Positions 1 to 63,789 of a DNA stretch of 64,000 nucleotides are shown here, piece by piece. The stretch lies in the NCBI GenBank assembly GCA_951804985.1, contig OX638136.1, forward strand, positions 7,443,852-7,507,851. The letters are read 5' to 3'. The DNA comes from Dryomyza anilis. Lineage: Eukaryota > Arthropoda > Insecta > Diptera > Dryomyzidae. A program made the position numbers and the translations under genes. Numbering within the stretch: position 1 is the stretch's first letter; every line of letters starts with the position of its first letter. The notes under the pieces were generated by a model that saw only the letters and a list, made by a program, of their open reading frames with translations, was not told the DNA's origin and did not search any database.

Positions 1-843
1 GCAGTAGGAAATGTGAAATGTGATGCAGAGCTTACGTTTTTCCTTGGTATCTTGCAGCAAGTCTCCGAAAATAAAAGAATTAAATATTGTTAAAATTAGT
101 AAAAAAAAAATAATGATAAAATGCAATACCTTTACTGCTGTCCATGCACAACTCCTTGAGCGCTGCATTAACCGCTGCAGCCGTTAACATAAATTTTTCG
201 TTGCTCGTGCTGTAGCTTGTCATCCAAAATATTCGGCTTGGCTTGTAATATTTCGTGTCTCTGCTGCAGTTTCATGTGTTGAATGACTGCGAAATGAATT
301 AAATAAATGGATTAAACTAAAGCATAATAAGCTTTTATAATTCATTATCCTACTCCTGACTTTGCATACCTTTGAATACGTGAATCCTCGACAGGTGACT
401 TCAACTCGCTCTTCTTGATAATTGGGTCGTTTACGCGCAAACACATTTTCATCTCTTTCCACTAAAATACTGCGTTCGTTGTAACCGCCTAGATGTGTTT
501 TCTCGTTGGTGTTTGTGTGAGGTAGCTGATGCATATGATAATTCCATTGCTGTTGTTATTCAAAGCTATAGCTGAGGATTATTATAATCATCATAATTTA
601 ATGAAATAAAAACTAAAAAGTTTGAATTTTTTACATTAGCGAAATTTAAATTTATTAAAATACAAAAAAATCACCAAATAGTAAAAGAGATAAAAAAATA
701 CCCAACTAAGCAATTCATATTTAAAAAGAAAAAAAATACCATTAACACATTAAAGTCTAATCTGCTAATGCTGCCATCACCAAATATATATATACGCTTC
801 ATATCAAAAGTATTTGTTGTTTCGTCATCCGGGGAATCAAATT
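1..843 (-). CDS. Possible host gene exons, partial, product unknown
   Basis: Minus-strand stretches look like exons of a host gene running off the left edge. Exon 1 (843-740) follows a strong pyrimidine tract ending in CAG and ends before a GT donor; it reads 34 codons containing DSPDDETTNTFDMKRIYIFG. Exon 2 (549-370) begins after ACAG, ends at AAG before GTATGC, and reads 60 codons with no stop, including RSILVERDENVFARKRPNY. Both junctions are phase 0, so they join in frame. A further open stretch near 210-145 (FMLTAAAVNAALKELCM) ends at a GTATTG donor, and 55-1 stays open to the edge. The acceptor of the third exon is unclear: the best CAG (near 290) would give an early stop in phase 0. 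I recognise no domain. It could be a gene fragment, a pseudogene or chance. Confidence 0.3.
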
Positions 844-1004
844 CTGGAATTAAAAGAAAAGAAAGAAAAAGTATTAGAACCACAGTACAATAATTACCAT
901 TTATAATACTAACTTATTATAAGCCTATCGAAAACTTAACGTTAATCCTTTAATAATTCCCATAAGACCGGGTCCGGCGCGGGACAGCGGAAACCTCTAC
1001 ACAT

Positions 1005-1861
1005 TGTGACGGTATCATTTGGGGGGCAAATGGTAACCACACATTTACGCTGCTTTACGGCGTTGAATAAGAATCGGCGTGGGAATCAAAGCCGTTGACA
1101 TAAGCGAGGCACAGGCACGTGGCACGAAAGCCACCAATACCCATCAGTGAGCAAAGCTTTCGCTGGTGAAGCGAAGAAGGCAACGAGTGTTTGACTAACA
1201 CATACTCACCAGTGAGCGAAGCGACAAAAGCGTCACTATCACACTCTCACTGGTGAGCGAGAAAGCTCACACGGATGGACGAAACTACAAGAGCGGCGTG
1301 CAACAAGTCACCAACGATCGGTCAACAAATCAACAATCGAGGCAACAAGTCACCAATCGCAGGCCTTTAAAAGGCGCTGCACAGCGTTAATTCGCTCTCT
1401 CTGTTCCTGACTTCGACCTCGACAAGACCGATCGGTTACAACGCTTTCTGCAGGCGAGATCCGTAGGAGCGTTGTACCGTGACCGGAGGTTCAGTTTCCC
1501 GTCCTGGTTAAGGACCAAGGATAAGCGCAGTTCCAGCAAGGCGGCCTGGAGTAAGTCTGGTTAAGATTATATGTATAAAATTTAGAAGCGGCGAGGGACC
1601 GGATGCAGCAGAGGCCCGTATGCAGCAGCGGCCCGTCAACAGTACAACGCACGGGGAATTTTGCATAAATAATTAAATACTTAATTAATATAATACTAAC
1701 TCACAATAAACGCGATGTATATCGCATAAATTAAAGACTTGTGTCGGTGTGTTCATTTCTATGAGGGTTTCCCTGCACAATAATAAATTTTGTAACGCGC
1801 GGACTACTGGAGCCCGCTGAGGATATCCCAGCTCTGAACCCGGAGAACCGGTCACGTTATA
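1005..1861 (+). repeat. 5' LTR
   Basis: Begins TGTGACGG and ends CGTTATA directly before the PBS. The 3' copy ends CGTAACA, close to the inverse of TGTGACG. It contains an inverted pair CTCACCAGTGAG / CTCACTGGTGAG (about 1205-1257), a TTTAAAAGG TATA-like box near 1373 and AATAAA signals near 1778. A U3-R-U5 layout is inferred from these. Confidence 0.92.
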
Positions 1862-1879
1862 TGGCGCCCGAGCAGGGAC
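1862..1879 (+). other. Primer binding site, tRNA-Lys type
   Basis: TGGCGCCCGAGCAGGGAC starts at the first base after the LTR. It matches the 3' end of a tRNA-Lys(UUU)-type primer with one difference. An identical 18-mer occurs on the minus strand at 48268-48285 beside a different LTR. The leader 1880-2172 is A-rich and has no long reading frame. Confidence 0.85.
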
Positions 1880-2172
1880 CCTTAGTGCAAAACAAAACGA
1901 ATTGTGCACAAAACATAGAAAGCACACTGCGTCGCGAGTGAGTTAAGGAAAAAAAATAAGCATAGTGAACGTTGTCAATAAATCTACGGTAAAAAGACAT
2001 GAAAGAAATTAAGAATTAAAAAGTAACTATGTGCGTGTAAAATGAACAGAAAACGAAAAGAAAATATGTGCGTGTAAGAGAACAAAAAAAAAAAAAAAGA
2101 ACAGAGCGCGAACAGAGAAAAATGAGACAGTGAAAAAAAAAAAAGAAAGAAATATTATAAAAGATAATCGCC

Positions 2173-4062
2173 ATGGTAAAAGTAACCTGGGTATACGGTC
2201 TCCGCCGGGAGGACCTCACCAAGTATTCCGCAGAGTTCGGTTTCGACGGGAGCGGTACCGTCGAAGAACTGCGTAGGAATTTTGCCGCTTACGTAAATGA
2301 CGGCAAGCGCACAGCTGAGGAGCTGGAGCACCTAGGAAAATTGGAGCTGAGACACGCCAAAGGGGCTTCGCCATTGCCGGTAGCAAGTGACACCGGGTTT
2401 CAGGAGCTCTTCAATCTACCATTCGTCCCACAAACCACAAACACGATGCCAACGACGGACGGAACGCTACACCCTGGTGAGTCAAAATTTAAAATTTTTA
2501 CTACAGGTGAGCAGGTGTGGACGCTGCCCACCTTGAGCACCAGGCCGTTGATGTCAGTGCGAACTACGTCACCGTGCATTTTTTCAACGGCTGGCACGCA
2601 ACCGATGCGGTACACAACCCAAACAAGCGTAACAGGAATTACGCCAATGGCGCAGCAGGCGCAACAGGCACAACAGGAGCAATCGGGAATTGCGCAAGCG
2701 GCTCAGCAACAGGAGCAGACAAGAATTATGGAAATGGCGCAGCAAATGGCGCAACAAATGGTGCAGCAAATGGCGCTGCAGGCACAACAGGCGCAAGGGG
2801 CGCAGCAGACACATCATACGCAAGGGGCGCAGCATACACATCAGGCGCAAATGGCGCAGGAGCAACAAACGCATATGGCGCAACAGGCGCAAATGGCACA
2901 ACAGCAACAGGCGCATATGGCACCGCTTAACAGTAACGATATACCGGGGTATCGATCATCGGACAGACAGAACAGGCCACCACTTGCAGATGCGGTGACA
3001 ACCCATCCCTCATCGGCAGCTCGTACAGGTGCGTCTGTGACACCTGAGGCCGCGATGGACCGCATCAGGAAGTGGTCAATAAAGTTTAATGGCACCAGTG
3101 ACCCGCTGGTATTTATAGAGCGCGTTGAGCAGTTAACGCGGGTCCATAACGTCGACCCCGACTGCGTTCCAGACGCGATACAGGAACTTCTGCTGGAAAG
3201 GGCACTAGTATGGCACCGGACCAATTATGCACCATGGCACCAGTGGAGCGACTACAAACAGGGATTTCTACGGTTTTTCCTGCAGCCCCGGTTCTTCGAG
3301 GATCTAGATGACGCCATACTTAAGCGGACACAGCGACCGCGAGAGGCATTTAAAGATTTTGTGATTAGTATGCGCGATATGATGCGACATACGCAGTACG
3401 AGGAGAAGGCGCAGATGGAGCGGATATTCAAGAATTGTCGTCAGGAGTACCAACTCTATATTCAGCGCCGCGACTTCACGACAATAACCGAACTGGTAGA
3501 CTTGGCGGACGACTACGATGTGATTCGAGGGAACGGTCAGACGCAGCCACAGCACAACGCGCGGCCGCGAGAAGAACATAATCGGCGGTTGGACGATGTT
3601 AAAAGGAGCGGTCATGCGGAACCATACCCCATGGCGTGGCCAAGAGTGGAAAACAATAGGTGGTTGAACGACGCTAGTAGGAGCAGTCAGACGCAGCCAC
3701 AGTACACGGCGCGGCCACGAGAAGAAAGTGATAGGCGGTTGAGCGACGCAGACAAGAGCGATCGCGCAACACCACCGAGAGAGAAGCCTAATCAACGAGG
3801 GAACGATGTCAGCAGGATGAAGATTAATCCGAGGACGGCATGTAGGCTATGGGGGCGCGACGGCCATTATCAAGCACGTTGTGCTGGGAATGCGGGTGCA
3901 GGGGCGTGCGTGCTTCTGATTGTAGCAGACGACGTTCGGGAAATGGCCGAGGAAGTCGCCAGTAGCGAGGGCTGGCGGTCCCTACGATCTCACCCCGTAC
4001 CCCACCGACGTATTGAAACAGGAGGCGACCCGCATCGTGGCGACGATTGCCATCAACGATGA
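2173..4062 (+). CDS. gag: gag, with degenerate zinc knuckle
   Basis: Structural protein of the element, about 600 residues. The start is the first ATG, in a CCATGG context after the leader. Residues about 4-43 (GLRREDLTKYSAEFGF and on) have a SAP-like look. Residues about 160-260 are Gln/Ala-rich with many AQQ repeats. A retrotransposon gag domain lies at about 290-440 (WSDYKQGFLRFFLQPRFFED region). A basic segment with three diverged copies of a 'QPQ..ARPREE' motif follows. The zinc knuckle near residue 560 reads CRLWGRDGHYQARC: the second Cys is Trp (TGG), one base from Cys. After the knuckle the frame runs on without similarity for about 60 codons. The protease frame is shifted +1, so gag-pol expression would need frameshifting. 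Confidence 0.85.
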   Translation: MVKVTWVYGLRREDLTKYSAEFGFDGSGTVEELRRNFAAYVNDGKRTAEELEHLGKLELRHAKGASPLPVASDTGFQELFNLPFVPQTTNTMPTTDGTLHPGESKFKIFTTGEQVWTLPTLSTRPLMSVRTTSPCIFSTAGTQPMRYTTQTSVTGITPMAQQAQQAQQEQSGIAQAAQQQEQTRIMEMAQQMAQQMVQQMALQAQQAQGAQQTHHTQGAQHTHQAQMAQEQQTHMAQQAQMAQQQQAHMAPLNSNDIPGYRSSDRQNRPPLADAVTTHPSSAARTGASVTPEAAMDRIRKWSIKFNGTSDPLVFIERVEQLTRVHNVDPDCVPDAIQELLLERALVWHRTNYAPWHQWSDYKQGFLRFFLQPRFFEDLDDAILKRTQRPREAFKDFVISMRDMMRHTQYEEKAQMERIFKNCRQEYQLYIQRRDFTTITELVDLADDYDVIRGNGQTQPQHNARPREEHNRRLDDVKRSGHAEPYPMAWPRVENNRWLNDASRSSQTQPQYTARPREESDRRLSDADKSDRATPPREKPNQRGNDVSRMKINPRTACRLWGRDGHYQARCAGNAGAGACVLLIVADDVREMAEEVASSEGWRSLRSHPVPHRRIETGGDPHRGDDCHQR

Positions 4063-4465
4063 ATTGGCAATCGCAACGGTGGACACAGGCGCGACGCGCA
4101 GCTTCGTAAGCGAGTTCTGCGCGAGAATGATCCGCACACCATTCAACTATAGAAGTACGGATGTCCACGTACGCATGGCGGACGGCGCCACCAGACACAT
4201 AAGAGAGGAGATTCGAGTGATGGGCGGGCTAGGCAACAAGGAGTGTCCCTTGACACTGTTGGTGTTACCCACCGTGGTCGACCACATTATCCTGGGGATG
4301 AACTTTTTGCAGCAAGCAGGCGCCACATTGAGTTGTGGTGGGCAGAGCGTCACGCTGAGGGAGACAGCGCGGCAGCCCGACCAGTCGCCAGTTTGCACAG
4401 TGGTGCGACCCGACACACGTAGCGAACGGGAGATGATCGAACAATTTTTACAGGAGGAGCTCTAA
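3926..4465 (+). pseudogene. pol: pol: aspartic protease domain
   Basis: Retropepsin part of pol, overlapping the gag tail in the +1 frame. Open from just after a TAG at 3923-3925. The catalytic loop is VDTGATRSFVSEF, followed by ADGATRHIREE and the hydrophobic strand with GMNFLQQAGATLS, as in Ty3/gypsy proteases. It ends at a TAA (4463-4465) that lies in frame with the RT downstream, so the polyprotein is interrupted here. The domain itself looks whole. Confidence 0.8.
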
Positions 4466-5557
4466 AAATTTGTGAACAATGGAGGGACTACGGACATCAC
4501 CACCCACAAAATCATTATGAAGGATGATTGCCCCATCAAGCAACGCTATTTCCCCAAAAACCCAGCGATGCAGGCGGTCATCATCGCATAAGAATGTATA
4601 GAGCCATCAAGGAGCCCACATAGCGCGCCTATAGTATTGGTGAAGAAGAAGACGGGACAATGGCGGCTATGTATCGATTACAGGCAGCTGAATGCACATT
4701 CAGTGCCTGATGCCTATCCACTGCCACGGATCCATCATATTTTGGACCGCTTGAGGAATGCAAAATATATCAGCAGTTTGGATCTGAAGAACGGTTATTG
4801 GCAGATTCCAATGGAGAAAAGCAGCAAGGAGTATACCGCGTTTACAGTGCCTGGACGAGGGCTGTATCAATGGCGAGTGATGCCATTTGGATTGCACTCA
4901 GCGCCAGCGACGTTTCAGCGCGCATTAGATCGTGTCATAGGACCAGACATGGAGCCGCACGCGTTCGCCTACCTGGATGACATTATTGTCACGGAATCTA
5001 CGCTGGAGGAGCACATGGCAAATTTGAAGGAAGTTTTCAGGAGACTGAGGCGAGCCAAGTTGCAGCTCAATAAGGAAAAATGCGATTTCTTCAAACGTGA
5101 AATCAAATATCTTGGCCATATGGTGAGTGACCAAGGTATTCACACAGACCCGGATAAGATTGCCGCAATACGTGAGTTACAACCACCAACGAATGTTCGG
5201 GAGGTACGCCAGTGTCTAGGCATTGCCTCATGGTACCGGAGATTCGTACCCGAGTTTTCGGATGTGGTGCAACCTTTGACAAAATTGTTGAAAAAGGGAA
5301 AGCACTTCAGCTGGTCGGAGGAGCAGCAGAAGGCGTTTGATAAGTTAAAAAGCATGCTGACCGAGGCACCGGTGCTAGGCTGCCCTGACTTTACGAAAAA
5401 GTTCACGTTGCAGAACGACGCTAGCAACTATGGGCTGGGAGCAGTGCTGACGCAAGAAATCGACGATAAGGAACGCGTAATAGCATACGCAAGCCGCAGG
5501 CTAAATAAGGCAGAGGAGAATTACTCGCCGACGGAAAGTGCCGGAAAGGAAAGCTGA
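4466..5557 (+). pseudogene. pol: pol: reverse transcriptase with RNase H deleted
   Basis: Same frame as the protease, but a second in-frame TAA at 4589-4591 precedes the RT core. Motifs in order: VLVKKKTGQWRLCIDYRQLN, LPRIHHILDRL, SSLDLKNGYWQI, TAFTVPGRGLYQWRVMPFGL, and the active site AYLDDIIV. The connection and start of RNase H follow (FTLQNDASNYGLGAVLTQ, VIAYASRRLNKAEENYSPTE). At about 5535 the sequence jumps from that segment to the stretch that normally closes RNase H (KLNVLADALSRQPL). The RNase H core is therefore missing and the frame changes. Read as an internal deletion, since both sides align with normal pol. Confidence 0.85.
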
Positions 5558-5601
5558 ATGTCCTGGCTGACGCGTTATCCAGGCAGCCGCTGGAGACGCT
5601 A

Positions 5602-6570
5602 ATGAAGACCGGTAAAGAGGCATCAGCCGAAGGACGCTGTGCATGGACAGACAGACAAATAATGGAAGTTCGAGAGCAACCGGAGAAATTTGCAGATTAC
5701 GCCATTGAGGATGGGAATCTATACAGGCACATACCACAACACACAAGTGACAGCGACGGCGCAGCATGGAAGCTGTGCGTTCCGACACCACGCCGCGCTC
5801 AGGTGATGCGCGAGAACCATGACGACGACACCGCAGGGCACATGGGTGTCCGTAAGACGATCGCTCGCGTATCAAGTCGATATTTCTGGCCAGGCATGAC
5901 TCGAACCATACGGCGATATGTGCGCAACTGCGAGTCATATCAGAAATTCAAGGTGTCGCAACAAAAGCCGGCAGGGAAAATACTGACAAAAATAGCGGAG
6001 GAGCCATGGGCATGGCTGTACGCTGATTTTGTTGGGCCTTTACCGCGTTCAAAACACGGAAACACGATGCTGCTCGTATTCTTTGATAAATTTTCCAAAT
6101 GGACCGAAATGGTGCCATTACGAAAAGCCACGAGCGACAGCCTGCAGCGCGCATTTCGTGAACGCATATTGGCGCGATATGGCGTCCCCAAGGTACTCAT
6201 CACGGACTACGGGGCGCAGTTTACGAGTAACTCGTTTCGGCGGTTTCTTCAGATTATGGGCGTGAAGCACCAATTCACGGCGCCATACACACCTCAGGAG
6301 AACCCGACCGAAAGAGCCAACAGGACGTTAAAAACCATCATCGCACAGTTGTCAGGACATCAGCAGAACCAATGGGACGAACAGTTAGCTGAAATTTCGT
6401 TGGCTATAAATTCTAGTATTTCAGAAACTACGGGTTACAGCCCGGCATATTTAACGCAAGGGCGGGAGCCGCGGCTTCCCAAGGCCCTTTACGATGAAGT
6501 CACCGTGGGAACAAGATCAGGCGCGCCACTAAAATTTGAGGCGGAGATCTTGGAAACCAGCAGTAGGTGA
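5602..6570 (+). pseudogene. pol: pol: integrase zinc finger and catalytic core
   Basis: Integrase in frame 1, shifted against the RT by the upstream deletion. The HHCC finger has both His (ENHDDDTAGHMGV) but CESYQ in place of C-x2-C, so the last Cys is Tyr. The catalytic core shows D (LYADFVGPL), D (LITDYGAQFTSNSF; the usual Asn after the Asp is Tyr) and E (NPTERANRTLK), so the DDE triad is present. After LPKALYDEVTVG the frame meets a second internal deletion at about 6525-6545 and leaves the integrase frame. Start shown is the first ATG after the RNase H scar. Confidence 0.85.
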
Positions 6571-6982
6571 TCTGGTGCTCATCAAGCAGCATCATCTATC
6601 CAAGGCGGTGGACGGTTTCGCAGCGAAACTGGCACCGAAGTTTGACGGACCATACAGGGTACTCACGTACGAGTCACCGGTGATAGCCGTGGTCAAGAGA
6701 TTGGGCCAGTCGAGGACAAGGACAGCTCATCTTAGTGAAATAAAACAGTTTCATCAAGCAGACGCGACGCCGGGCGAAACAGCAGCAGCGGCAAGGACAC
6801 CACCGAGGCAGCAGAATGAGAAGCGGTCAAACAACAATCACCAGAGCAACGTAGTTGATCACCAGGCGACAGCGAGATTAAAGAATCTATTTCGCACAAC
6901 GGTCACGGCCCACAGGAACCCTTTCCGCGATGGAAACTTCAGTGGAGATCAGGGCCACAACGGAAACAAAGCGCAGGTGTAA
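6536..6982 (+). pseudogene. pol: pol: integrase C-terminal GPY/F domain
   Basis: Frame 2 continuation of integrase after a deletion junction. It reads LRRRSWKPAVGDLVLIKQHH and then FDGPYRVLTYESPVIAVV, the GPY/F module that follows the catalytic core in many Ty3/gypsy integrases. The segment normally linking core and GPY is missing at the junction. A basic, Gln/Asn-rich tail follows to the TAA/TGA region near 6982. Confidence 0.75.
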
Positions 6983-7348
6983 CAGGTGAATTCAGAGAGC
7001 AGAGCACCGCGCGCACACACACACATGACCATTGCAATGTGTGCGAAGTGCGCAAGTAGGCGACGGCCGTTAAAATTCAAATAGTCAAATTTCGCGGAAT
7101 TCGGTTTACAATAATTCGCGAAGGCACGAACGAGCCGTGGCACGAACGAGTCGAGTACGTGGCACGAACGAAGCATAACATCATACGAAACAAGCATGAC
7201 TCATCGGCGTCATTAGTTACGCAATCGTCAACAACGACACATGTGCGCCGCGAAATAAAAGCTGATTAAAACGAACCGAGAAAATTAAAAGTGAAGATTT
7301 CAGTAAATCACACCGAACAATTAAACAAATATTCTGATTTAAATTACG
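6983..7348 (+). promoter_or_regulatory. Noncoding spacer before the third gene, candidate splice acceptor
   Basis: 366 bases without a usable frame between integrase and the Ulp1-like gene. It holds a CA repeat (7011-7024), two near-copies of a 'GGCACGAACGA' motif (7137-7170), and 'GAAGATTTCAG' ending near 7304, which could act as a splice acceptor for a subgenomic mRNA as env genes use. No TATA box or Inr is convincing. Confidence 0.3.
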
Positions 7349-8770
7349 ATGGACAATTGTGATCCAAATAAATTGGCTGAAAGTGCAGCGCATTATCGGC
7401 AGAAGTTGTTGGATAGTCTCCAGCAAACGAGACGCACTCAACCGCTGGGCCCAGAGTACGTCGAAGTGCTCGAAGAACGCGGTAAGCGACTGCGTGTAGA
7501 AGCCCATGCTTACACAGGAGCCTTCCCAGCATTTCTGGCGGCGGAGGAGACGGCGACGACAAGAGCCGTGACGACAACGAAGGCAACTAGTACCGCAGTT
7601 GCAAGGACAAACGCAGGCGCCCCAATCGCACCAACAACGCAGAGCATCCGGAACACGGCAGCAAGTGCCGCAATGATTGCCGGAGTGCGGGAGCGACAGC
7701 AGGTGATACCAGAATTGTCAGCAGTCATGGAACGTGATGGTGATACCCGGCATTTGTTCGCCTACCCGCCGATGGGGCGCGGTGTAGCGGTGACCATCGG
7801 CGACTACCGATTCTTAGCGGCAGGGCGATTCGTGAACGATACGATCGTGAATTTCGGGTTGCAGTGGGCACTACGAAACACCGAAGACGTAGTTCCGGGC
7901 AGGAGAATGTATGCGTATGACACGTTCTTTTACACCAGCATGACGAATGACATCGAGCGCTGCGCGAAGACGTGGACCAGAAAGATGGATCCTTTCTCAC
8001 AGGATCTGCTGTTGGTGCCAATCAACGAGAACCTGCACTGGTATTTGGCGGCGATCTGTCTACAGGGCGCGGCGCCACAGGATCCCGCATGGCGCGCGAC
8101 ACAGGGCGACGGTATGCAAGGACAGCGGCCGTGCATCCTCATCATAGACTCGCTAGCCATGCAATCGCGCAAACACGCTGCTACAAAGGTGCGTAGGTTC
8201 TTGACGGAGGTCTCAAGGAAAGGTGGCGCGACCGGGCATGAGTTCACCGAGGAGAACATGCCGTGTTACGAGGTGAGAGTACCACAACAGCCGAATTTGA
8301 CGGACTGCGGCGTATATCTGTTACGCAATGTGGAGTCATTGCGACGAGACCCCTTGATCAACTTGGTTCCGCCTATCAACAGGGCGAATTGGTTTTCAGG
8401 GAAAGAAGGCGCTACCAAACGAGAGGACGTGGCTAAGCAAATTCGCCATTTGGCCCGGGAAGCGGGAACGGCGATAGGCATCGCATGGCCGGATCTTTCA
8501 AGACGTCCGGCACAAAGGGCAGTGAAGGCCCCAACGCAGCAGATGGTTGCAACAGCAACAGAGGCAGTAATGACGCGACAGAGGGTCGCGCCTGCGACAA
8601 CGACAGAGGCGACTGGCGTCGCACAGCAAGTGGCTACACAGACGCAGCAGCAAAGCCACGATGTGGCAATGGAAACGAGCCAAGAGGCCGTAGGCTGGGA
8701 AACCGGCGCTCCAAAGTGGGAGGATGTCTGGCGGAGTGCGCAGCGGACGGCTGTAGGCACCCAGATTTAG
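7349..8770 (+). CDS. Ulp1/SENP-like (C48) cysteine protease, third gene of the LTR element
   Basis: 473 codons in the env position. Residues 1-130 are Ala/Thr-rich and unrecognised. Residues about 155-335 match a C48 SUMO-protease fold: the entry motif GRFVNDTIVNFGLQWAL, the catalytic His at about 230 in INENLHWYLAAI, Asp at about 267 in CILIIDSLA, and Gln-x5-Cys in VPQQPNLTDCGVYLL with Gln314 and Cys320. All four catalytic positions are present in the usual order and spacing, so the enzyme could be active; known relatives cleave SUMO/Ulp-type C-termini or isopeptide bonds. The tail after 390 is Thr/Gln/Ala-rich. The frame ends at TAG 8768-8770, after which the same frame stays open for 355 more codons. 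The start follows a purine-rich leader at 'ACGATGG'. The substrate is unknown; a role in host deSUMOylation or in polyprotein processing is inference. Confidence 0.85.
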   Translation: MDNCDPNKLAESAAHYRQKLLDSLQQTRRTQPLGPEYVEVLEERGKRLRVEAHAYTGAFPAFLAAEETATTRAVTTTKATSTAVARTNAGAPIAPTTQSIRNTAASAAMIAGVRERQQVIPELSAVMERDGDTRHLFAYPPMGRGVAVTIGDYRFLAAGRFVNDTIVNFGLQWALRNTEDVVPGRRMYAYDTFFYTSMTNDIERCAKTWTRKMDPFSQDLLLVPINENLHWYLAAICLQGAAPQDPAWRATQGDGMQGQRPCILIIDSLAMQSRKHAATKVRRFLTEVSRKGGATGHEFTEENMPCYEVRVPQQPNLTDCGVYLLRNVESLRRDPLINLVPPINRANWFSGKEGATKREDVAKQIRHLAREAGTAIGIAWPDLSRRPAQRAVKAPTQQMVATATEAVMTRQRVAPATTTEATGVAQQVATQTQQQSHDVAMETSQEAVGWETGAPKWEDVWRSAQRTAVGTQI

Positions 8771-9835
8771 GAGGTTTTAGACGCCGCAAAGCAAGGCGCC
8801 GCACAAGCGCAACAGCGACGCAGCGAAGAGGTGACGACACAGACGCACCAAGAAGTGGCGGGCGTGTCAATCAGCGCCCCACCACCAGCGACGAACACGC
8901 AGACTGCACATCGGACGGCTGTAGCAGCTGCAGACGAAGCGACCACGAGCGTCTCACAGCGGACGGCTGTGCAGGCGAAGAATCAAAGAGGCGCGGGCAT
9001 AGCAATAATGCCGCGGTCAGAGGTGGCTGGCGCGAATATCAGCGCCCCACAGAGAGCAGGAGATTGGCAGAGTGCAAAGCGGACGGCTGTAGCAGCTGCC
9101 CAGGACAAGGCAACAACCAGCACCACACCGCGGACGGCGGTGATTACTACGCAGAGTGGTCAGCCAGGGGCGACACGGAGGGCCCCACGCATAACGACGG
9201 CAGAAGCAGCGCGACATATGACGCTTCCCGAGATCCAGCTACTGAAGCAGTGGCCGGTGGTGAACGAAGCAGTGACAGCAGAACCAGTGGCGCGGCAGGC
9301 GGCCGAACCAACGTCACCACATTCGACAGCGAGCACTGCAACTCGGACCACACCGTGGCGCACTACAGCCGCACGAAAGGAGTACGAGCCTGTTAGGCGT
9401 AGCAGCAGTACTAGCAGCAGCGGCAATAGCGGAAGTAGTAGCGAGAGTAGCAGTAGTAGCGGAAGTAGCAGTAGCAGCGGCAGTAGTAGCGGAAGTAGCA
9501 GAGGCAGCGGTAGTGGAGGTAGCAGCAGTACCCACCACAGTAAGAGCAGCCACAAGAGCCAGATGAGCGTCCACCATAACAGTATGGACAGCCCAAATGC
9601 TCCAACGGCGGGGGCAAACGAGGACAACCCCCCAGAGAGCGCACCATCATCGGAGAGACTCGACGAGGTTCCCCCAGAGGTGATGGCAGCGGTGCACCGA
9701 CTAAGGCGAGACAGGCCAGCCCACAAGCGGGTGTCATGTATTCATTTTCACGGCGCCTATCGGTGGCGGATCCGCATCAACTACTCGGACGTCGTGAGCA
9801 TCATACGACTTCCACTCTCATCCACCCCGAAGTAG
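8771..9835 (+). CDS. In-frame continuation of the third gene: repeat and Ser-rich tail
   Basis: Same frame as the Ulp1-like gene, directly after its amber codon, running to TAG at 9833-9835 next to the polypurine tract. It carries two tandem copies of a roughly 60-residue unit that open with EVAG(V/A)(S/N)ISAP and contain RTAVAAA and a second RTAV; a third degenerate copy (RSAQRTAVGT) lies before the stop, so the repeat array spans the stop codon. Residues coded at about 9395-9530 are a Ser/Gly low-complexity run, followed by His/Ser and acidic stretches. The last 40 residues (HFHGAYRWRIRINYSD) look ordered. The simplest reading is one protein of about 828 residues with a single amber mutation; programmed readthrough is a less likely alternative. 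No function recognised. Confidence 0.6.
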   Translation, partial: EVLDAAKQGAAQAQQRRSEEVTTQTHQEVAGVSISAPPPATNTQTAHRTAVAAADEATTSVSQRTAVQAKNQRGAGIAIMPRSEVAGANISAPQRAGDWQSAKRTAVAAAQDKATTSTTPRTAVITTQSGQPGATRRAPRITTAEAARHMTLPEIQLLKQWPVVNEAVTAEPVARQAAEPTSPHSTASTATRTTPWRTTAARKEYEPVRRSSSTSSSGNSGSSSESSSSSGSSSSSGSSSGSSRGSGSGGSSSTHHSKSSHKSQMSVHHNSMDSPNAPTAGANEDNPPESAPSSERLDEVPPEVMAAVHRLRRDRPAHKRVSCIHFHGAYRWRIRINYSDVVSIIRLPLSSTPK

Positions 9836-9843
9836 GGAGGGGG
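9832..9843 (+). other. Polypurine tract
   Basis: GTAGGGAGGGGG abuts the first base of the 3' LTR and overlaps the stop codon of the third gene. This is the expected plus-strand primer of the element and fixes the 3' LTR start at 9844. Confidence 0.85.
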
Positions 9844-10707
9844 TGTGACGGTACCATTTGGGGGGCAAATGGTAACCACACATTTACGCTGCTTTACGGC
9901 GTTGAATAAGAATCGGCGTGGGAATCAAAGCCGTCGACATAAGCGAGGCACAGGCACGTGGCACGAAAGCCACCAATACCCATCAGTGAGCAAAGCTTTC
10001 GCTGGTGAAGCGAAGAAGGCAACGAGTGTTTGACTAACACATACTCACCAGTGAGCGAAGCGACAAAAGCGTCACTATCACACTCTCACTGGTGAGCGAG
10101 AAAGCTCACACGGATGGACGAAACTACAAGAGCGGCGGGCAACAAGTCATTAACGATCGGTCAACAAATCAACAATCGAGGCAACAAGTCACCAATCGCA
10201 GGCCTTTAAAAGGCGCTGCACAGCGTTAATTCGCTCTCTCTGTTCCTGACTTCGACCTCGACAAGACCGATCGGTTACAACGCTTTCTGCAGGCGAGATC
10301 CGTAGGAGCATTGTACCGTGACCGGAGGTTCAGTTTCCCGTCCTGGTTAAGGACCAAGGATAAGCGCAGTTCCAGCAAGGCGGCCTGGAGTAAGTCTGGT
10401 TAAGATTATATGTATAAAATTTAGAAGCGGCGAGGGACCGGATGCAGCAGAGGCCCGTATGCAGCAGCGGCCCGTCAACAGTACGCAGAGACAACGCACG
10501 GGGAATTTTGCTAAATAATTAAATACTTAATTAATATAATACTAACTCACAATAAACGCGATGTATATCGCATAAATTAAAGACTTGTGTCGGTGTGTTC
10601 ATTTCTATGAGGGTTTCCCTGCACAATAATAAATTTTGTAACGCGCGGACTACTGGAGCCCGCTGAGGATATCCCAGCTCTGAACCCGGAGAACCGGTCA
10701 CGTAACA
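9844..10707 (+). repeat. 3' LTR
   Basis: 864 bp copy of the 5' LTR, from TGTGACGG to CGTAACA. Differences seen by eye include T/C at the start (GGTACC for GGTATC), GTCGAC for GTTGAC, CATTAACG for CACCAACG, an extra 8 bases near 10486 and a one-base indel near 10511. The similarity (about 99%) indicates a recent insertion. Confidence 0.92.
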
Positions 10708-10903
10708 AGTCATAAGCATCCCCATTCAATCGTAATCTAACGCATTTAATAAATACATTATTCTCTGAATCTTGAATTCCAAGCTTAGTAGCTTTACAAC
10801 CTTCAATAAATCTATAAATTTCTGTTTTTAATAATGGTGAATCCATTCCAGAAAAGCAGGGAACCAAATAACGAACGAGTTTTAAAATATTTTCCGTACC
10901 CAT
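10708..10903 (-). pseudogene. gag N-terminal fragment
   Basis: Starts at ATG 10903-10901 and runs about 65 codons before entering the LTR of the neighbouring element. MGTENILKLVRYLVPCFSG, YRFIEGCKATKLGIQ and FIKCVRLRLNGDAYDLL resemble the beginning of insect Ty3/gypsy gag proteins (the 'kl.gdA...l' segment). The remainder of gag is not found to the left of 1005, so this is a broken remnant. Confidence 0.55.
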
Positions 10904-12560
10904 TTTGATTGTCGACAGTGTAATATACTATTTCATAATTTTTTTCTTGGTATATTTGTCCTTTGTTTACCTTTACTTATGACATTTTTCTTTATATATA
11001 TTGTTATAATTTAAATTTTTACATTTTTCAAAATAATTAATGTTTCATATTTTTATTTTAAATATTTTATATTGTATTTTTGATTTAATAATTCATAAAT
11101 TATTTTGTAAATTATAATTTCATAAATTATAATATACTGATTTTTAGATCGCATTTTAATTTCGTTTACGTTTTAAATTTAACTATTTATTTGATTTTAT
11201 AGTGTTATCGTTTTATATTTAATGAAAATTATAATTTGCATACTAATAGCATGAATTATTTTATTATACACTGGAGGGTTCGGATTCGCAGTGTGTATTT
11301 TCTTTTATTTATTGTCATATTTTTATTATATATTATTTTATTTCAACTAAAATTTCGTAGTACATTTTTTCTATTACTTTCCATATTATTTTAAATTTAT
11401 ATTTTTATTATAGACTGGAGGGTCCGAGGTTTGGAATCTCAGTGTGTATTTAATTTTATATATTTTATTTTTCCTTTACTTTTTTTTTTAAATAGATAGA
11501 ATGTGTAAATATTTTTTATTCAAAACTTTAAAAACTAACCATTTTCTATTTGGGTTTTTTACGTCCTTCGTCCTTCTTCCTTCGTTCTACGTCCTCCTTC
11601 TCACTCTCGGTCCTTGCTAGGTTGGTACCGACGTACCGGCTGCGCCAAATGTTGTAAAATTAGAGATGTAAAATTAGAGTTGATTTATTTTACATTTATT
11701 TATTCAATATTCAATTTAAATAATCAAAAGACTTTTTTATTTTTAGAGTTTAAAAGACACTTTTATTAAATTTACTATTGAAAAGACACTTTTACTATTT
11801 TAGAACCTCCACTTCAGGTTGGTTAAACTACAACCTTTTAATTTGCAACGAAAGGTATTAATGATACCTTCGTTGCAAGCTTTTCTTAAATTCTATTCTC
11901 ACTATGTTCTAGTGAGTTTTCACTTTCACTCAATTTTGGTGTACGTGACTTTTGAAGAACTCCGACTTGCTGTTTTTGGCTGACACCAATTGCGAAATAT
12001 CAGAATTGTTGGCAATCGCTGCTTCACTTATTTTAACATAGACCCAAAAATATGCAATGGAAAATTGTATTGCAAGCCTCTTGAAAGAGGTGTGGTCTAT
12101 GTAAAGCTTGTGCGCTTTGCCAAATTATTGCCAGCTTCTGTTAACTGTGCAAGCTAACCTGAAAGAGGTGTGTTCTATGTAAAGCATTGTTGCCAACGTG
12201 AAGCGTTGGCAACAATATCTTTAAATATGAAACAAATGTCACAATTAAATGTGACTAAAATCGGATTTATTGCATATATATTTACTTGTATTAAATATTA
12301 CTTAAATATTATGCAAATCTTAAAACACTTAAAGAATACTTGCAAAAGGTACTCCATTATAATTCGCTAAGTATATTTTATTTAATTAACATTAAAGCAA
12401 TTTTCTGGTTATACTTCGTCTTTGTATAGCCATCCCCGCTAAAATTGTACAATGGCGTGAGTTTTTGTCGCTTGAACTATAAAAGTGTAGGCACATATAA
12501 AGCTATTAATTGAAAGCTATTAAGACGTGTGGCAAACATCATGTATTTTTAAAATATAAC
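10708..12560 (-). mobile_element. 5' part of an older LTR retrotransposon, minus strand
   Basis: Read on the minus strand: LTR, PBS, leader, gag start. The PBS TGGCGCAGCCGGTACG lies at 11647-11632, of the type used by 17.6/297-like fly elements. The LTR lies to its right and ends TACAACA close to the PBS; its far end I could not fix (somewhere about 12.2-12.6 kb). It includes a near-perfect hairpin TTGCAACGAAAGGTAT / ATACCTTCGTTGCAA at about 11847-11881. The leader 10904-11631 holds two copies of a motif 'ACTGGAGGGT...CAGTGTGTATTT' (about 11269 and 11414). The gag frame stops where the 1005-10707 element begins. Confidence 0.6.
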
Positions 12561-13297
12561 AAGAGTTTTATTGATGGTCAACACTTCAGGTATATTTGTA
12601 CAATTGCTACAAGGCATACATTCAAAATTGTAGTCTGTGTTTCATATTTTTATTGTTATTTTATAACATCTTAATAGAACTTATACACGACGTCAAAATT
12701 AGATTCACTTAAAAATATTATATCTGAATAAAAATAAGTTATAAATCCATCTTTTTACGATAAACCAAAATGATGAATCGCAAATATTCCAAATAATGTT
12801 TGTAAAAATATATGTGAATTGACAGTAATACAGTTGAATAGTTTCATAGTCGAATTGGAAATCCCTCGAGTATTCCACTATCATAGTCACACATTTAAAG
12901 TATTGAAAGCTTAATATATAATAGTTATCTAAAAATTTTAATAAAATGTAGTAATATGGTTTTCTTTTTGTAAAGAATATTCAGTAATTTTAATATTTTT
13001 AGTTTTATAATATTGGCCTTGTTAAAGAAACATGACTACATAAATCTAACTAATATTTAGTATGGTAAAACAACATAAATTTAGCATATTCGAAATTTTC
13101 GATTCTGCATAACAACATAAGTCGACATATGTTACTCGTTTTATTTATAAAACGAGTTATACACATGAAATATCAATATTTCAATTTGGAATAACAACAT
13201 TTAATACTAATTCCGCTATAAGTAATAGAATAATAAACAATTAAAAAATGACTTATGTTGTTATTGCATGAGACGACAGATTTGTAAATATAATAGT
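12561..13297. other. AT-rich spacer, no gene
   Basis: Nothing coding seen. It holds one perfect short palindrome, ACTCGTTTTATTTATAAAACGAGT, at about 13133-13156. It is otherwise simple AT-rich sequence up to the left end of the Harbinger element. Confidence 0.5.
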
Positions 13298-13464
13298 GGT
13301 ATCATACAACTTGTTAAGTCTGGCTAAACGTATAAATTGTTAAAGTTGGCAGTTTTTTATATGAACGTACTTTTCTATGCCTTTATTTCCATTATTTTGA
13401 GAATTAACTGTCAAACAAATAAAAATATGTTTGCATAGATATTTTTTAATAAATTGAAATAAAA

Positions 13465-14738
13465 ATGCCTAAATATAGCGAAATGAAAAAAAACATAAAA
13501 CATCTGAAGGAAACTGCAATATTTAATATGTGCACGTTGGAAGTCTTCTATTGGGAAGATGGTATGAATATTCGAATTTCACTATTTATGCATACCTAAT
13601 ATCGCTTGTATTCAGATATAAGTGCAGAGGAATCACAAATAATTGAAAACTTAGTTTTTTCAATAAAGCTCGTCGAGCAATGTCGATATGCGGTTCCGTT
13701 CATACATGGATCAGTTCTTAAATCTACACATTTTTTAAAAGAAATCTTGCAGAACCTTGATGAAAATAGATTTAAGCAAATAGTCAGAGTTTCCATAAAA
13801 AATGTCCATGTTGTCCTAAATTTAATAAAAGATGATGACATTTTTAACGGTCCACGGTCATCGACACAAATACCAGTAAAATTGCAATTAATGATTGCAC
13901 TGTACAGACTGGGATCTAGTGGAGAAGGCGCAACCATTGCCAAAATTGCGTTTTTATTTGATATTGGCGATGGTGGCACAATTCAAATTCTGACAGATAG
14001 AATCTTTCGTGCCATATTAAAACTTAAAAACATATACTTACACTGGCCATCAAATGAAGAACGTCAACAACTGGTATCTGAAACTTTTCATGAATTACCA
14101 TACTGCATAGGATATGTTGATGGAACAGAAATACGATTTGCAGAAAAACATTCGCATGATATTTTTCACGAAAACATCAGTATTGATTGAAAGTTCAAGC
14201 TGTTTGTGATCACAAGTTGCGAATACGACATATGTTACTTGGTTATCCAGGGAGTGTGCATGACAGCAGAATATACAAAAATTGTGTTTTATCAGTTAAT
14301 GCTTCTAACTATTTTACTGGACATGAGTGGCTAGTAGGAGACAGTGCATATAAATTAACAAGCACTGTAATCACACCATACAGATCAAATTCTAAAGATG
14401 GAACTCTTCAGGAACGAAACGAATTCAATAAGATTTTAAGTAAATATAGAATTAGAATTGAACATTGTTTTGGATTTCTGAAAGAAAGGTTCAATAGTTT
14501 AAAGGAGTTAAAATTGAAAATAAAAAATGACGAATGCCTTAAAAAAGTTTGCCAATGGATAATGGTTTGCGCTATATTACATAATATTATTATTGAACAA
14601 AAAACAAATCAAAATGTTTTTGAATACATCCATAACACGGACAATGATATACTTGTAGAAGGCAATCAGAATGAGTCCACCGTCGAAGGCGAACTAAAAC
14701 GTCGCACAATATTGGAAATACTAAAGGAATCTATTTAA
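13465..14738 (+). pseudogene. PIF/Harbinger transposase, one intron and one frameshift
   Basis: DDE transposase (DDE_Tnp_4 type). Exon 1 starts at ATG 13465 (MPKYSEMKKNIKHLKE) and ends at 13561. A 54-base GT...AG intron (13562-13615, GTATGA to TTCAG) rejoins the frame at ISAEESQIIENL in matching phase. Catalytic residues: D in IGYVDGTEIRF, D in PGSVHDSRIY and E in RIRIEHCFGFLKERF. The first frame ends at TGA 14188-14190, and the second frame opens at 14187 with KVQAVCDHKLR, the normal continuation; a one-base loss at the junction explains this. The C-terminus (LHNIIIEQK) is complete to TAA 14736-14738. Codons are AT-rich like the surroundings. Confidence 0.85.
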
Positions 14739-28599: not shown

Positions 28600-29754
28600 T
28601 TATTGGGTGTTGTGTATCTGTTGAGAGTTTCGAATTCTTCCACCAACTTGAATAAGTCCCTTTCCATCTATGAATGGATTAAGCTGAAACAGTTTAGATC
28701 CTTTTGGCAATTCTTGCTTGCGTTGTAGGCATACTAGATCCTTGTGAAAATAGTTTTGTGCTATCTTCAAACACATTTGCCGAGCTTCGTCTATTTCGTC
28801 GTACGTAATGTATGCAGTTACAGGGGTTTGTTTCGATGGAATCCTCTTAATAAAACGTAATACATACGCTGTAATCCTTAGAAGTTTCCACCACGATGAA
28901 ATACGATCTGCCAACAGCGCAATAGGATGATGATCAGTTGTCTGGCTGGAAATCAAGGCGACCACATTTTTCTTCATTTCAACCGCAGCGTCTGGATCAG
29001 CAAAACAATTTAGTTCAGGTTGGTTTAAACGATTTCCTTCATCGATTCTCAACCAGCTTGGGCCTTTCCACCATAGATCAAATTCTATAAGCTGGCTAGC
29101 CATCATTCCGCGAGATGCACAGTCCGCTGGATTGTCTTTTGATGAAACATGCTTCCATACATGGCGTGGCAGTATGTCTAAAATCTCAGAAGTACGATTA
29201 GCAATAAATGTTTTAAGTTTTATAGGTTGTATAGATAACCACGACAAGACCACTGTAGAATCACACCAAGCATGCAAAGTGGCCGACTCGTGCGGTAATG
29301 CAGCAACAACTGAGTTCATCAAACGCGCCAACAACAGAGCGCCGCATAGTTCTAACCTAGGTAGTGAGATTTGTTTTAAAAGAGCGACACGAGTTTTTGC
29401 AGCAACCAAAGAAATCTGAATATTGCCATGTTCATCGTTAGCACGACAATATACGACCGCAGAATACGCTTTGATGGATGCGTCTGAAAATCCATTTAAC
29501 TCAATCTCTTCATTATAATTGTATATGAAACGTGGTAATTTTAATTTAACAAGATGATGAAGGTCTTCCCTATAACCGAGCCATAGATTTGCTAGATTGT
29601 CAGGCAATGAATCATCCCATTCGATGCTAAGGAGCCATAGTTCTTGAAACAATATCTTGAAATTAACCACTACTGGAGCAACTAATCCCAATGGATCAAA
29701 AATACGTCCGAGAGCACTTGTCCCTTCGTAGCATTTTGACATCTCCCCAAGCAT
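28600..29754 (-). pseudogene. pol: BEL/Pao RNase H and connection domain
   Basis: 384 open codons. Begins with the Pao connection motif ALGRIFDPLGLVAPVVV. The RNase H core includes D in LNGFSDASIKAYSAVVY, E in LPRLELCGALL and D in HAWCDSTVVLSWL, then HVSSKDNPADCASRG. The C-terminal part runs into the integrase N-terminus (LIQVGGRIRNS). The longest intact piece of this element. Confidence 0.88.
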
Positions 29755-30706
29755 ACCTTATATCCAATTACGTCAATACCCGGCTGCCAATGTATGCCTA
29801 GAACCTTTGTAGCTTCATCATCTGGTTGCTTTAAAAAACTTGGTGCTTGCTGTGTTTCGATAGTGTCTGTAATACAGCTTGAATTTGTTACCCACTTACT
29901 CAACTCCAGCCCCGCAAGCGATAATAAATGTATTAACTCCTTTTGTTTAATAATCAACTCTTCTTCCGATGGCGCACCAGTTAATACATCATCCACATAA
30001 AAATCTTCCCGTAACACCTTTGCAGCGATTGGATGTGTATTCTGGTAGTCCTCAGCAATTTGTTCTAATACTCTTACAGACAGGAATGGTGCAGTGGCGG
30101 TACCATAGGTGACAGTGCACAAATGGTAGTGTTTTATTGGTTTGTCTGGGTCTTCTCTCCATATTATGCGTTGATAATTACGTTGTTCTTCCGCCACCCA
30201 AATCTGTCTGAACATTTTAACTATGTCAGCAGTGAAAACCAATTTGTGAAACGAAGACACACTGCAAACAGATTTCGCTGGATACATGGGCCAATGTGCA
30301 GTTTGCTATTGAGAGAAACTCCATTTTTATCTTTATAAGACCCATCGAAAACAACCCTTAATTTTGCGCCAACTACCGGGTGATGTGGCATGTAGAAAAC
30401 TCGATTGTCCACCACTTGAATTTCATCCTCCGTAAGTTCTCGCATATGTCCCAGCCGAATATATTCCTGCATGAAGTTCACATATTGCGACTTTAACGAG
30501 CGATCCCTTAGCAGTCGTCGTTCAACAGCATTGAAGCGTGAGAGTGCACCTTGAAATGTGTCATATTTCTTCTTTAAATGGAAGCTGTACAACATATTTG
30601 CCATCGGTGTGACGCCGATGTGTTTTACGAAAGTGTTCCTCAACAAGCAACGAATCAGAATCCTTCTGAAGCTGGTGATTGGCCTCCTCAACTTCCCAAA
30701 AGGCAC
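29682..30706 (-). pseudogene. pol: BEL/Pao reverse transcriptase
   Basis: Two overlapping frames. 30706-30221 gives the fingers: VFYMPHHPVVGAKLRVVFDG and LNSKLHIGPC. 30287-29682 gives the palm: ADIVKMFRQIWV, TYGTATAPFLSVRVL and the active site FYVDDVLTGA. The catalytic YVDD is intact, but a frameshift near 30230-30285 separates the fingers from the palm, and another near 29750 separates the palm from RNase H. Confidence 0.88.
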
Positions 30707-31676
30707 GCAGCGAACGATCGATATCTATTAATGAAACAAATGTCAGCGACGATTCTTCCTGCATAGACGAAGAAACGGCTGTGACAACCCATCCAAATCG
30801 CGATGAAACAGCTATGGTATTTCCCTTTGAGTTAAACAATTTCTCCATAGTTAAAACGTCCCAAACATAATCAGCTCCAAGCAAAATGTCAATATGCGAC
30901 GAATGATTAAAAGTTGGATCAGCAAGATTTACGTTGTTGAATAGATGGTGATCAAAAACCGGAATAGAAAATCTTGGTAGCAACGAAGTAATTTGGCTAA
31001 GAATTTGTACGCGTGCCTTTAAATTAAATTGATAGACTCTGGACCTGATATGTAGAGTGCTGCACCCACGAGTAGTTTCTCCCTTCACCGACGATATTCC
31101 AGAGACAGCAATACGAGATGCTGAACGAGCAAGACTAAGGCGCTAAATGCAACGTTCAGTTACATAAGACAATTCAGACGCACAATCCAGCAGCACGCGG
31201 CATTCAACAAACTGTCCTCTGATGTCACACACATCAACAACCGCTGTTGGTAAAATAATTTTATTTATCTGGTTTTTGTGAGAACTGTCCAGCAGCAAGG
31301 AGTGAGACACGTTCGATATAGATGTTAACTGATTATCATCAGGAGCTGTAGGATGATATGGATTCGAAGGCGACAAAACATTCATCGAAGCCGCATCAAA
31401 ATGCACATGATTGTTATGTCGACGCTTACAGTTCCTACAGCGATGCTGTGACTTGCAAGTGTATGCATTATGTCCTGATTTCAAGCAATTGAAGCACAAT
31501 AATTTATCCTTAACAAAGGAGCGACGCTCAGCCACAGCCAAAGACAAAAAAATAGGACAGTTTGTGATACTGTGATTCGTGCACTTTATGCACTTATGTT
31601 GATTCTCATTAGTTACAACTAGCGCATGCGACTTGGTAGTACCTAACTGTTTAGTTGAAGTTTTATTCTGACTCAA
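30561..31676 (-). pseudogene. BEL/Pao zinc knuckles and protease
   Basis: 31676-31143 has CTNHSITNC, the knuckle CFNCLKSGHNAYTC and CRNCKRRHNNHVH, then the protease start ILPTAVVDV and LLDCASELSYV. The catalytic D-[ST]-G is DCA here, so the protease is probably inactive in this copy. The frame closes at a TAG at 31143-31145 and resumes as 31088-30561 with ILLGADYVWDVL and the 'SRFGWVV' block typical of the Pao protease C-terminus, leading to the RT. Confidence 0.8.
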
Positions 31677-31678
31677 TT

Positions 31679-32565
31679 CTAATTCTCACAACGTTGATCT
31701 AAAAATTCAAAAAATTCATTAATAGTTTGTTTTGAACTGGCTCGGCTCTTTTCAATCCATTTTCTTCGTGATTCGGGGTCTATCTTTGTTTGCAACCAAT
31801 AAATTATCCAACAATCGCGCTCACTTTGATTAATAGCTCCTAATCCTCTGATAACTTCGTCAGCACCATCAGAAATTTTGCGCAACCCGGCTGCATTTTC
31901 ATTTGCAGCAGATGGAAGTGACATAAATGTTTCAATAAAAGAGGTGACGATCACGCTGTAATGTAAGCAGAATCAGTGATTTGCATATGCTTAATCAGGT
32001 TTGCAGCATCATCCTTCAACAGTGACTTTAAATAATGAAATTTCTGCGTATTGGTTAGGCCTGGTTTTGAATCTATTGTGTTCGTGAATAAATCTCTGAA
32101 TGCTGGCCAATCTTTATAAACTCCAGTAAATGGTTGAATAATTATTTTTGGCAATTCATTATCTCGAACGTGTGTGGTAACAGGTGACTCTGAAAACCTC
32201 TGCAACAGTGTAGTTTGCTGTTCTGCTAATCTGGAAAAGGCATTAACTTGTGGCTCTTGCGAAGCTTCACGTGAAATAAGTTAACGTTTAAATTCAAAAA
32301 ACGTACCTTGAGCCATAACATATTTTTCCTCATAGGCAACAAGTTCTATTTCAGGGTCAACAAAACCTTCTGTGTCTTCAAATTCCAATAACTCCAGTGA
32401 GCACGCTTGAAATTCTTGCCATGCCGCTTATAACCTGTTTAGTCGCGCTTCAATTTGACCCAACGAGTAATCCTCTGGAGGGTTCTGTGCATATGTCAGC
32501 GTGCGTGTAATTGCGCCTTTTATTTGGCGGCTTTTTGACACTAACTTCTTCATATGATCCGACAT
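31679..32565 (-). pseudogene. gag: BEL/Pao gag
   Basis: Starts at ATG 32565-32563 (SDHMKKLVSKSRQIKGAITR). It reads through at least two in-frame stops (TAA near 32430 and near 32280) into the DUF1759 core: LPKIIIQPFTGVYKDWPAFR, LKSLLKDDAANLIKHMQI, then WIIYWLQTKIDPESRRKW after a frameshift at about 31950. A 207-bp tandem duplication (32462-32875) repeats the start codon region upstream. Confidence 0.8.
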
Positions 32566-42726: not shown

Positions 42727-43200
42727 TTAATCCTCAAACTCCTCATTTACATCTTCGTCCTTGCGCTCGTTTTCAAACCAAGAGATGAACTTTTTGATGT
42801 CGATCTCATGGTTCGATTCTTGTAGACCTGCGTGTAATATCTCAGCATTCTGAGGTTTTGGAACTTGCATTTTAAATTGGAATTGCTTTTTTGGTTCGTC
42901 TTTAAAATGCCATGTTCGTTGTGCGAGATCCAGCACGATTCCGGCCTCTTCCATAAAGTCAATGCCCAAAAGTGTACGATTATTTTTGGCGTATGGTAAA
43001 TAGATGAAACGGATGCGCTTTAATCGTTTCCCTATGATGACGCTGAGAATTGTCGTTTGCACCTTATGTTTCCTTGGAATTCCATCTGCGAGGATTACTT
43101 CTGCAAATACGTCCTGAAATTCCAAGCCTCTTTCTTTCATTTGTCCTGCAACGCTGGTTCAAGCCGCTGTATCTAAATAGGCTTCACCATGTATGTAGGC
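42727..43200 (-). pseudogene. gypsy-like protease
   Basis: AYLDTAA is followed by a TGA and then TSVAGQ, so one in-frame stop interrupts the active-site region. The rest reads FQDVFAEVILADGIPRKHKV, RIRFIYLPYAKNNRTLLGID and FMEEAGIVLDLAQRTWHF, a retropepsin with a DTA catalytic loop. It ends in a Lys/Glu-rich linker before the minisatellite. Confidence 0.75.
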
Positions 43201-61494: not shown

Positions 61495-61497
61495 TCT

Positions 61498-63785: not shown

Positions 63786-63789
63786 AACC
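63776..63789 (-). other. copia primer binding site
   Basis: GGTTATGGGCGATC directly follows the LTR. The first ten bases equal those of the copia PBS, which pairs with an internal fragment of initiator tRNA-Met. Confidence 0.65.

Follow-up and report, generated by a model that had tools for sequence, protein, structure and literature searches.

An Ulp1-type protease gene is carried by the plant Mutator-like element Kaonashi. Among DNA transposons, Ulp1 domains have also been described for Ginger and for Mutator elements including VANDAL (passages of PMC2836005), and a Ty3/gypsy family of orchids with an open reading frame (ORF) for an N6-methyladenosine (m6A) RNA demethylase provides a precedent for enzyme capture by a retrotransposon (passages of PMC9289625). 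Here, we describe a long terminal repeat (LTR) retrotransposon of the fly Dryomyza anilis that carries, between integrase (IN) and polypurine tract (PPT), a third ORF (ORF3) with a C48 protease domain of the SENP6/7 (Ulp2) class. The element lies in a stretch of 64,000 nt (assembly GCA_951804985.1, contig OX638136.1, positions 7,443,852–7,507,851, forward strand), referred to below as the window, and the C48 gene is carried by at least five families of related elements in the same genome (A, which includes the window copy, B, C, D, and a lineage called L036), where it has been kept as a working part of the lineage.

As in Ginger1 and Mutator-like elements, to the extent that the passages of PMC2836005 describe them, C48 is kept in several families of a mobile element; those elements are cut-and-paste transposons with terminal inverted repeats, whereas the present ones have LTRs and a reverse transcriptase (RT), a gene in the envelope (env) position, and SENP6/7 as nearest relatives. 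Membership in the Ginger/Mutator groups, which have inverted repeats, a transposase, and no RT, was rejected because of the LTRs and RT; a search for inverted repeats with a minimum length of 40 within window positions 1–14000 found none. Similar to the orchid family, a gypsy element has gained and kept an extra enzyme, but enzyme and host (a plant) are different there and one family is concerned (passages of PMC9289625). Errantiviruses such as gypsy and ZAM carry env as a third ORF between pol and the 3′ LTR, the very position of ORF3. An envelope function for ORF3 and an errantivirus-type assignment were however ruled out, because ORF3 of three families has no transmembrane stretch (maximal 19-residue hydropathy, KD19, 0.98–1.29). 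The window element may have a primer site resembling tRNA-Lys, as the Osvaldo lineage does. Its size is likewise near the 9–10 kb of that lineage, with LTRs of about 855 bp here versus 997–2055 bp there, and the passages of PMC3286476 on Osvaldo do not mention a SUMO protease. The features of the window element, all on the + strand, are the following:

1005..1857, +, 5′ LTR, beginning with TGTGACGG; direct repeat of 9844–10703
1862..1879, +, primer binding site TGGCGCCCGAGCAGGGAC, read from the sequence
2173..4062, +, gag frame (MVKVTW...), in an open frame spanning 2161–4062
3926..4465, +, pol piece, aspartic protease (PR; Pfam gag-asp_proteas 5.5e-11, RVP_2 5e-8)
4592..5557, +, pol piece, RT/RNase H (Pfam RVT_1 4.5e-41, RT_RNaseH_2 5.8e-28)
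5509..6570, +, pol piece in a different frame, IN (Pfam Integrase_H2C2 2.1e-22, rve 3.5e-15)
6533..6982, +, C-terminal piece of IN (Pfam SH3_Tf2-1 3.1e-5; 24.5 bits, under the cut-off of 30)
7349..8770, +, first part of ORF3, with ATG at 7349, 473 sense codons, and an in-frame TAG at 8768–8770
7829..8350, +, C48 (SENP6/7-class) catalytic domain, residues 161–334 in the Pfam match
8036–8038 (H230), 8147–8149 (D267), 8288–8290 (Q314), and 8306–8308 (C320), +, catalytic residues, from the alignment with SENP7
8702..8788, +, core of 87 nt (protein TGAPKWE..WR.AQ) in which the families differ by unusually few synonymous changes
8771..9835, +, rest of the ORF3 frame, with a low-complexity, Ser-rich linker and a C-terminal module (...YRWRIRI...)
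9834..9843, +, PPT AGGGAGGGGG, overlapping the ORF3 stop
9844..10703, +, 3′ LTR, direct repeat of 1005–1857

The initial annotation had placed an Ulp1-like protease gene of 473 codons between IN and PPT of an element with both LTRs. The position is read directly in the window, the frame is real (7349–8767), and His, Asp, Gln, and Cys do occur in C48 order; the class, on the other hand, is SENP6/7 (Ulp2) and not Ulp1, and the frame is cut short by the TAG. The domain matches PF02902 far above noise (E 7.4e-17, 62.3 bits, cut-off 20.7), as do the ORF3 proteins of families A (5.3e-16), B (1.5e-21), C (4.1e-21), and D (4.6e-21). Human SENP7 in the PDB is matched at E 5.7e-35, and its bit score (124) leads those of SENP2 (59), SENP1 (58), Ulp2 (5lnb, 55), SENP5 (43), and Ulp1 (41); SENP7 is also the top match of families C and D. 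In the alignment with SENP7, NENLHWYL, LIIDSL, and NLTDCGVYLL of ORF3 correspond to NESSHWYL, LILDSL, and NSSDCGVYLL, and both proteins have an F/Y-x-ND motif where SENP2 has W-L-ND. Foldseek searches with the predicted fold (the best of five models, with a predicted local distance difference test score, pLDDT, of 56.4, the other four being at about 40) return SENP7–SUMO2 (7r2e, E 3.7e-16) and SENP7 (3eay) first, with a template modelling (TM) score of about 0.6 and a root-mean-square deviation of about 8 for the SENP7 match, followed by Ulp2 (5lnb) and SENP1/2/5; an earlier AlphaFold model with a pLDDT of 36.7 was discarded as poor. ORF3 thus shares catalytic domain, catalytic residues, and predicted fold with SENP6 and SENP7. 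It differs from the cellular proteins in that a retrotransposon encodes it, within a single frame, in that their long insert is missing, and in its N- and C-terminal parts. Asp, Gln, and Cys are present in all 27 copies of families A, B, and C that were compared (26 loci plus the window), and His in 26 of them, the copy without it being L007; the catalytic Cys has been lost in L027, a degraded copy outside these 27. A chance match is excluded by the E-values together with the purifying selection described below.

Beyond the TAG, the frame stays open for 354 more codons up to a stop at 9833–9835 that overlaps the PPT. A full ORF3 of about 830 residues begins with a fast-changing N-terminal module; the C48 domain follows, and a long linker of low complexity joins it to a short C-terminal module. 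Besides C48, ORF3 contains nothing above cut-off in Pfam. The single full family D copy has no in-frame ATG before the C48 domain. The linker is also overlapped by a long −1 frame (window 8437–9396, +; open in three families). As a candidate gene this frame is unconvincing, because codon shuffles that preserve the ORF3 protein give an equally long frame in 25/500 cases for A, 125/500 for B, and 8/500 for C.

The window element itself belongs to the Ty3/gypsy type of LTR retrotransposons and is damaged; it has paired LTRs, a primer site that we take to resemble the 3′ end of tRNA-Lys, a PPT, and the domain order PR–RT–RNase H–IN. Gag, PR, RT/RNase H, and IN follow one another between the LTRs, although pol is fragmented by stops and frame changes. 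No gag match above cut-off was returned by the Pfam search with the window gag; families B and C have a homologous gag frame that is open and contains a zinc knuckle. Counted by eye from the alignment, the two LTRs differ by 6 substitutions (about 0.7%) and two indels. The flanks, compared as a possible target-site duplication, read ACAT 5′ of the 5′ LTR versus AACA 3′ of the 3′ LTR. Next to the PPT, all seven family A copies L002–L008 have an identical LTR start, and a purine run lies at the PPT position in all of the other copies compared (seven of family A and nine of family B).

How widely is ORF3 kept among relatives? The genome surveyed comprises 656.6 Mb in 69 contigs. Window aside, at least 13 places match all 473 residues at 96–97% identity, and at least 10 of these lie in stop-free frames of 830–834 codons, so that the idea of a one-off event, which the initial annotation had wished to see checked, is contradicted; full-length relatives carry ORF3 as well. 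Among the 99 matches listed, 59 more have 44–58% identity, 23 of them in frames of 700–938 codons. The 473-codon form is a shortened one: longer ORF3 frames measure 830–834 codons in family A, and those of family B reach 938. Twenty loci selected by long frames were read, namely nine of family B, ten of family C, and L027, an older relative of family A. Families B and C have the gene order gag–PR–RT–IN–ORF3, and their identity to the window is 90–93% in RT, 76–78% in PR (complete ones), mostly 83–88% in IN, and only 54–60% in C48. A fourth lineage, L036, is broken and has an RT 88% identical to that of the window; in the fifth, family D, RT is 83% and C48 40% identical, with an ORF3 frame of 579 codons. 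A reading of family D as C48-free was dropped, since a full ORF3 that includes C48 occurs in L040 and L044. The C-terminal modules of the five lineages match each other, with 0 of 500 shuffles scoring as high in each of the 10 pairs.

Linkage of C48 to RT was assessed with the 124 best RT places and 113 C48 places, hand-picked from the matches listed in the genome searches, counting C48 on the same strand and at most 7 kb downstream. C48 is found downstream of 17/18 RTs with at least 97% identity to the window and 20/23 with 87–92%, but only 8/61 with 78–83% and 0/22 with 76% or less; restricted to pol frames of at least 1000 codons, the counts are 9/10, 12/12, 4/31, and 0/12. Neither result that the initial annotation would have counted as a refutation was thus obtained: the C48 match is strong, and related full-length elements do carry ORF3, although not every relative has C48. 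In the integrase tree (midpoint-rooted in place of a true outgroup, with family D represented by an ORF3-deleted copy), one group with support 100/98 unites the five C48-bearing lineages (A, B, C, D, and L036), while families E, F, and G, the last read from one degraded copy (L037), fall outside it. The C48 sequences of families A, B, C, and D form one group (100/100) in a tree that also contains five cellular SENP6/7 rows.

Some copies have lost other genes. RT is deleted, in some cases together with IN, in 6 of the 10 family C copies taken (L018, L019, L020, L021, L024, and L026), which retain Gag and a long open ORF3 frame, shortened N-terminally in L026; L025 has ORF3 alone. Since the family C loci were selected for carrying C48, these proportions are not an estimate. 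The RT-less copies and the ORF3-deleted copies of family D, which retain the C-terminal module just before the PPT, suggest that elements may complement one another in trans, some supplying ORF3 and others the remaining parts.

The C48 domain is under purifying selection, similar to the element's own aspartic protease, whereas the other parts of ORF3 evolve fast. Between families B and C, the ratio of nonsynonymous to synonymous rates (dN/dS), which the initial annotation had named as a check, is 0.105 for C48, 0.112 for PR, 0.026 for RT, and 0.023 for IN, compared with 0.525 at the N-terminus of ORF3, 0.524 at its C-terminus, 0.478 and 0.447 in the linkers, and 0.425 in the short core that separates these. 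Comparisons with family A are affected by saturation at the synonymous sites of C48. For C48 within single families, dN/dS is 0.18 in A (4 copies) and 0.16 in C (6 copies); 3/7 A and 2/8 C copies were dropped because the boundary motif was not found, and L004, L011, L025, and L026 are not included. The 87-nt core, located at 6998–7084 in L009 and 6698–6784 in L017 (locus turned to the element strand), has a proportion of synonymous differences (pS) of 0.15–0.24 versus 0.42–0.85 in the other five ORF3 regions (three families), and its DNA in families A and C is 88–94% identical to that of family B. In 30-codon windows, the stretch just past the core is also low, with pS down to 0.21 (A–B and A–C). 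A cis signal and gene conversion between families are equally possible explanations, because the adjoining stretch is low as well.

Where did ORF3 come from? A third ORF, 336 codons long, rich in Arg, Ser, and Pro, and open in 3/3 copies (L035 1651–2658, L042, and L043), is present in family F (RT 76%); in L035 it gives no Pfam match and no C48. At the N-terminus it is similar to ORF3 of family A (score 57) and at the C-terminus to ORF3 of family C (score 49), each with 0 of 1000 shuffles as high. Resemblance to the remaining families is weaker or absent (677, 372, 30, and 19 of 1000 shuffles for the N-terminus against B, C, L036, and D; 994, 418, 13, and 18 for the C-terminus against A, B, L036, and D). 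Since the C48-free ORF of family F has ends like those of ORF3, the simplest reading of these sequences is that the third ORF predates the C48 insert. A host SENP6/7-like gene (G000:C5:83352106-83353580; L029 and L030) has its domain spread over two frames, which we read as exons, and an extra insert. The C48 domain of ORF3 lacks both the frame split and the insert, so capture of the domain from a spliced host transcript is likely. This host gene is the nearest cellular row in an 11-row C48 tree to which two more distant proteins had been added (86/96, on long branches). Taken together, the trees and the intron loss make it likely that a SENP6/7-type domain was inserted once into a pre-existing third ORF with similar ends.

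An LTR element with an Ulp1 or SENP domain was not found among the papers listed outside subscription journals and Repbase, as judged by titles, the beginnings of abstracts, and, for PMC2836005, passages. In two papers on extra ORFs of plant elements, the words ulp, SUMO, C48, and peptidase are all missing. In protein searches, two of which scored only the about 7990 candidates sharing most words and whose listings include the best 120 of 125 and the best 120 of 432 matches, the entries listed consist of SENP6/7-type proteins, C48 proteins without a name, and a single C48 protein from a fungus. No entry listed carries the name of a mobile element, which counts weakly as evidence of absence because gene sets often mask repeats. 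In viral contigs, 59 pattern matches included no relative of ORF3.

What could a retrotransposon gain from such an enzyme? SENP6/7-type enzymes prefer SUMO chains. From the gene, its class, its catalytic residues, its selection, and its retention, all of which are observed, we infer a substrate, a target, and a benefit: the ORF3 protein would strip SUMO or SUMO chains from host silencers, such as factors directed by PIWI-interacting RNA (piRNA) or heterochromatin factors, the variable N- and C-terminal modules would select the target, and an element that strips SUMO from silencing factors would be better expressed. We assign a probability of roughly 0.5 to the reading that ORF3 removes SUMO from host proteins that silence the element. 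In the fruit-fly germline, loss of SUMO or of the SUMO ligase Su(var)2-10 activates many transposable element families, and both are needed for silencing (passages of PMC7676866). That the enzyme evolves slowly and the modules on either side of it evolve fast agrees with targets that change, although the pattern is no proof of this.

The enzyme may instead act on proteins of the element, either by deSUMOylating Gag or IN or by cutting element or host polypeptides in an adenain-like manner, which we regard as rather unlikely. Processing of viral proteins is a function of distant C48-like relatives, poxvirus core proteases are found low down in the list of fold matches, and the RT-deleted family C copies keep Gag and ORF3 frames together; however, the element already has an aspartic protease, the nearest relatives are SENP6/7, and families E and F have spread without C48. 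Alternatively, deSUMOylation of chromatin or DNA-repair proteins near the insertion could aid integration or target choice, as proposed for the Ulp1 and OTU domains of Ginger DNA transposons (passages of PMC2836005). The contig that is home of the window (C7, 23.2 of the 656.6 Mb), which is perhaps heterochromatin-rich or a sex chromosome, holds 35 of the 113 C48 places. This concentration can be explained by slow loss as well as by targeting, and we think a role in integration has a small chance of being correct.

Action on another modifier, such as ubiquitin or NEDD8, or a role as SUMO-binding pseudo-enzyme seems improbable: NEDD8 proteases share the fold (ranks 29–31, 33, and 34 in the fold list) and one of the 27 copies lacks the catalytic His, yet SENP7 comes first by both sequence and fold, far above them, and the catalytic residues are conserved. 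That ORF3 is a neutral passenger from a one-off transduction of a host gene would agree with the shortened window copy, but with at least five families, long open frames, a dN/dS of 0.105, and catalytic residues kept, it is refuted and hardly credible.

Several points weigh against removal of SUMO from host silencers as the function of ORF3, or against parts of the history set out above. Most of ORF3 is missing in 3/4 family D copies inspected (L033, L039, and L041), and 4/4 family E copies read are without a third ORF of 120 codons; therefore, ORF3 is dispensable in places and not required for mobility. Within family B, which is young, dN/dS of C48 is 1.03 (8 copies, with about five differences per pair and hence few changes). 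RT identity to the window does not assign a family, because an E-like RT (C7:2306811; 81% identity, pol frame of 1228 codons) has a D-type C48 downstream (C7:2303303); this copy is a possible recombinant. The SUMO-cleaving action of ORF3 is itself predicted from sequence, and a processing role is possible even though the element has its own aspartic protease. Finally, that family F never had C48 is a matter of parsimony, loss being possible, and the host gene, which joins the element clade on long branches, is a candidate donor.

Elsewhere in the window, further frames resemble, by eye, parts of other mobile elements: a Harbinger-type transposase (13600–14738, +), a BEL/Pao pol (28600–31685, −), a gypsy gag (43184–43834, −), a hAT element (44915–45607, −), a LINE (56421–58070, +), and a Copia element (60053–63788, −).

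In conclusion, we tentatively put forward, with more doubt than confidence in the whole, that an animal LTR lineage could possess a dedicated counter-defence deSUMOylase of the SENP6/7 class, in which a host catalytic domain would have been inserted between two existing targeting modules and would erase the SUMO marks of piRNA and heterochromatin silencing, with enzyme-free or defective relatives possibly profiting in trans. If true, the mobile elements known to have taken up C48 genes would include, besides cut-and-paste DNA transposons, several families of LTR retrotransposons at once. A retrotransposon's own SUMO protease would then be a direct molecular counter-move in the silencing conflict, as well as a natural, testable tool to ask which SUMO-modified proteins matter in it.

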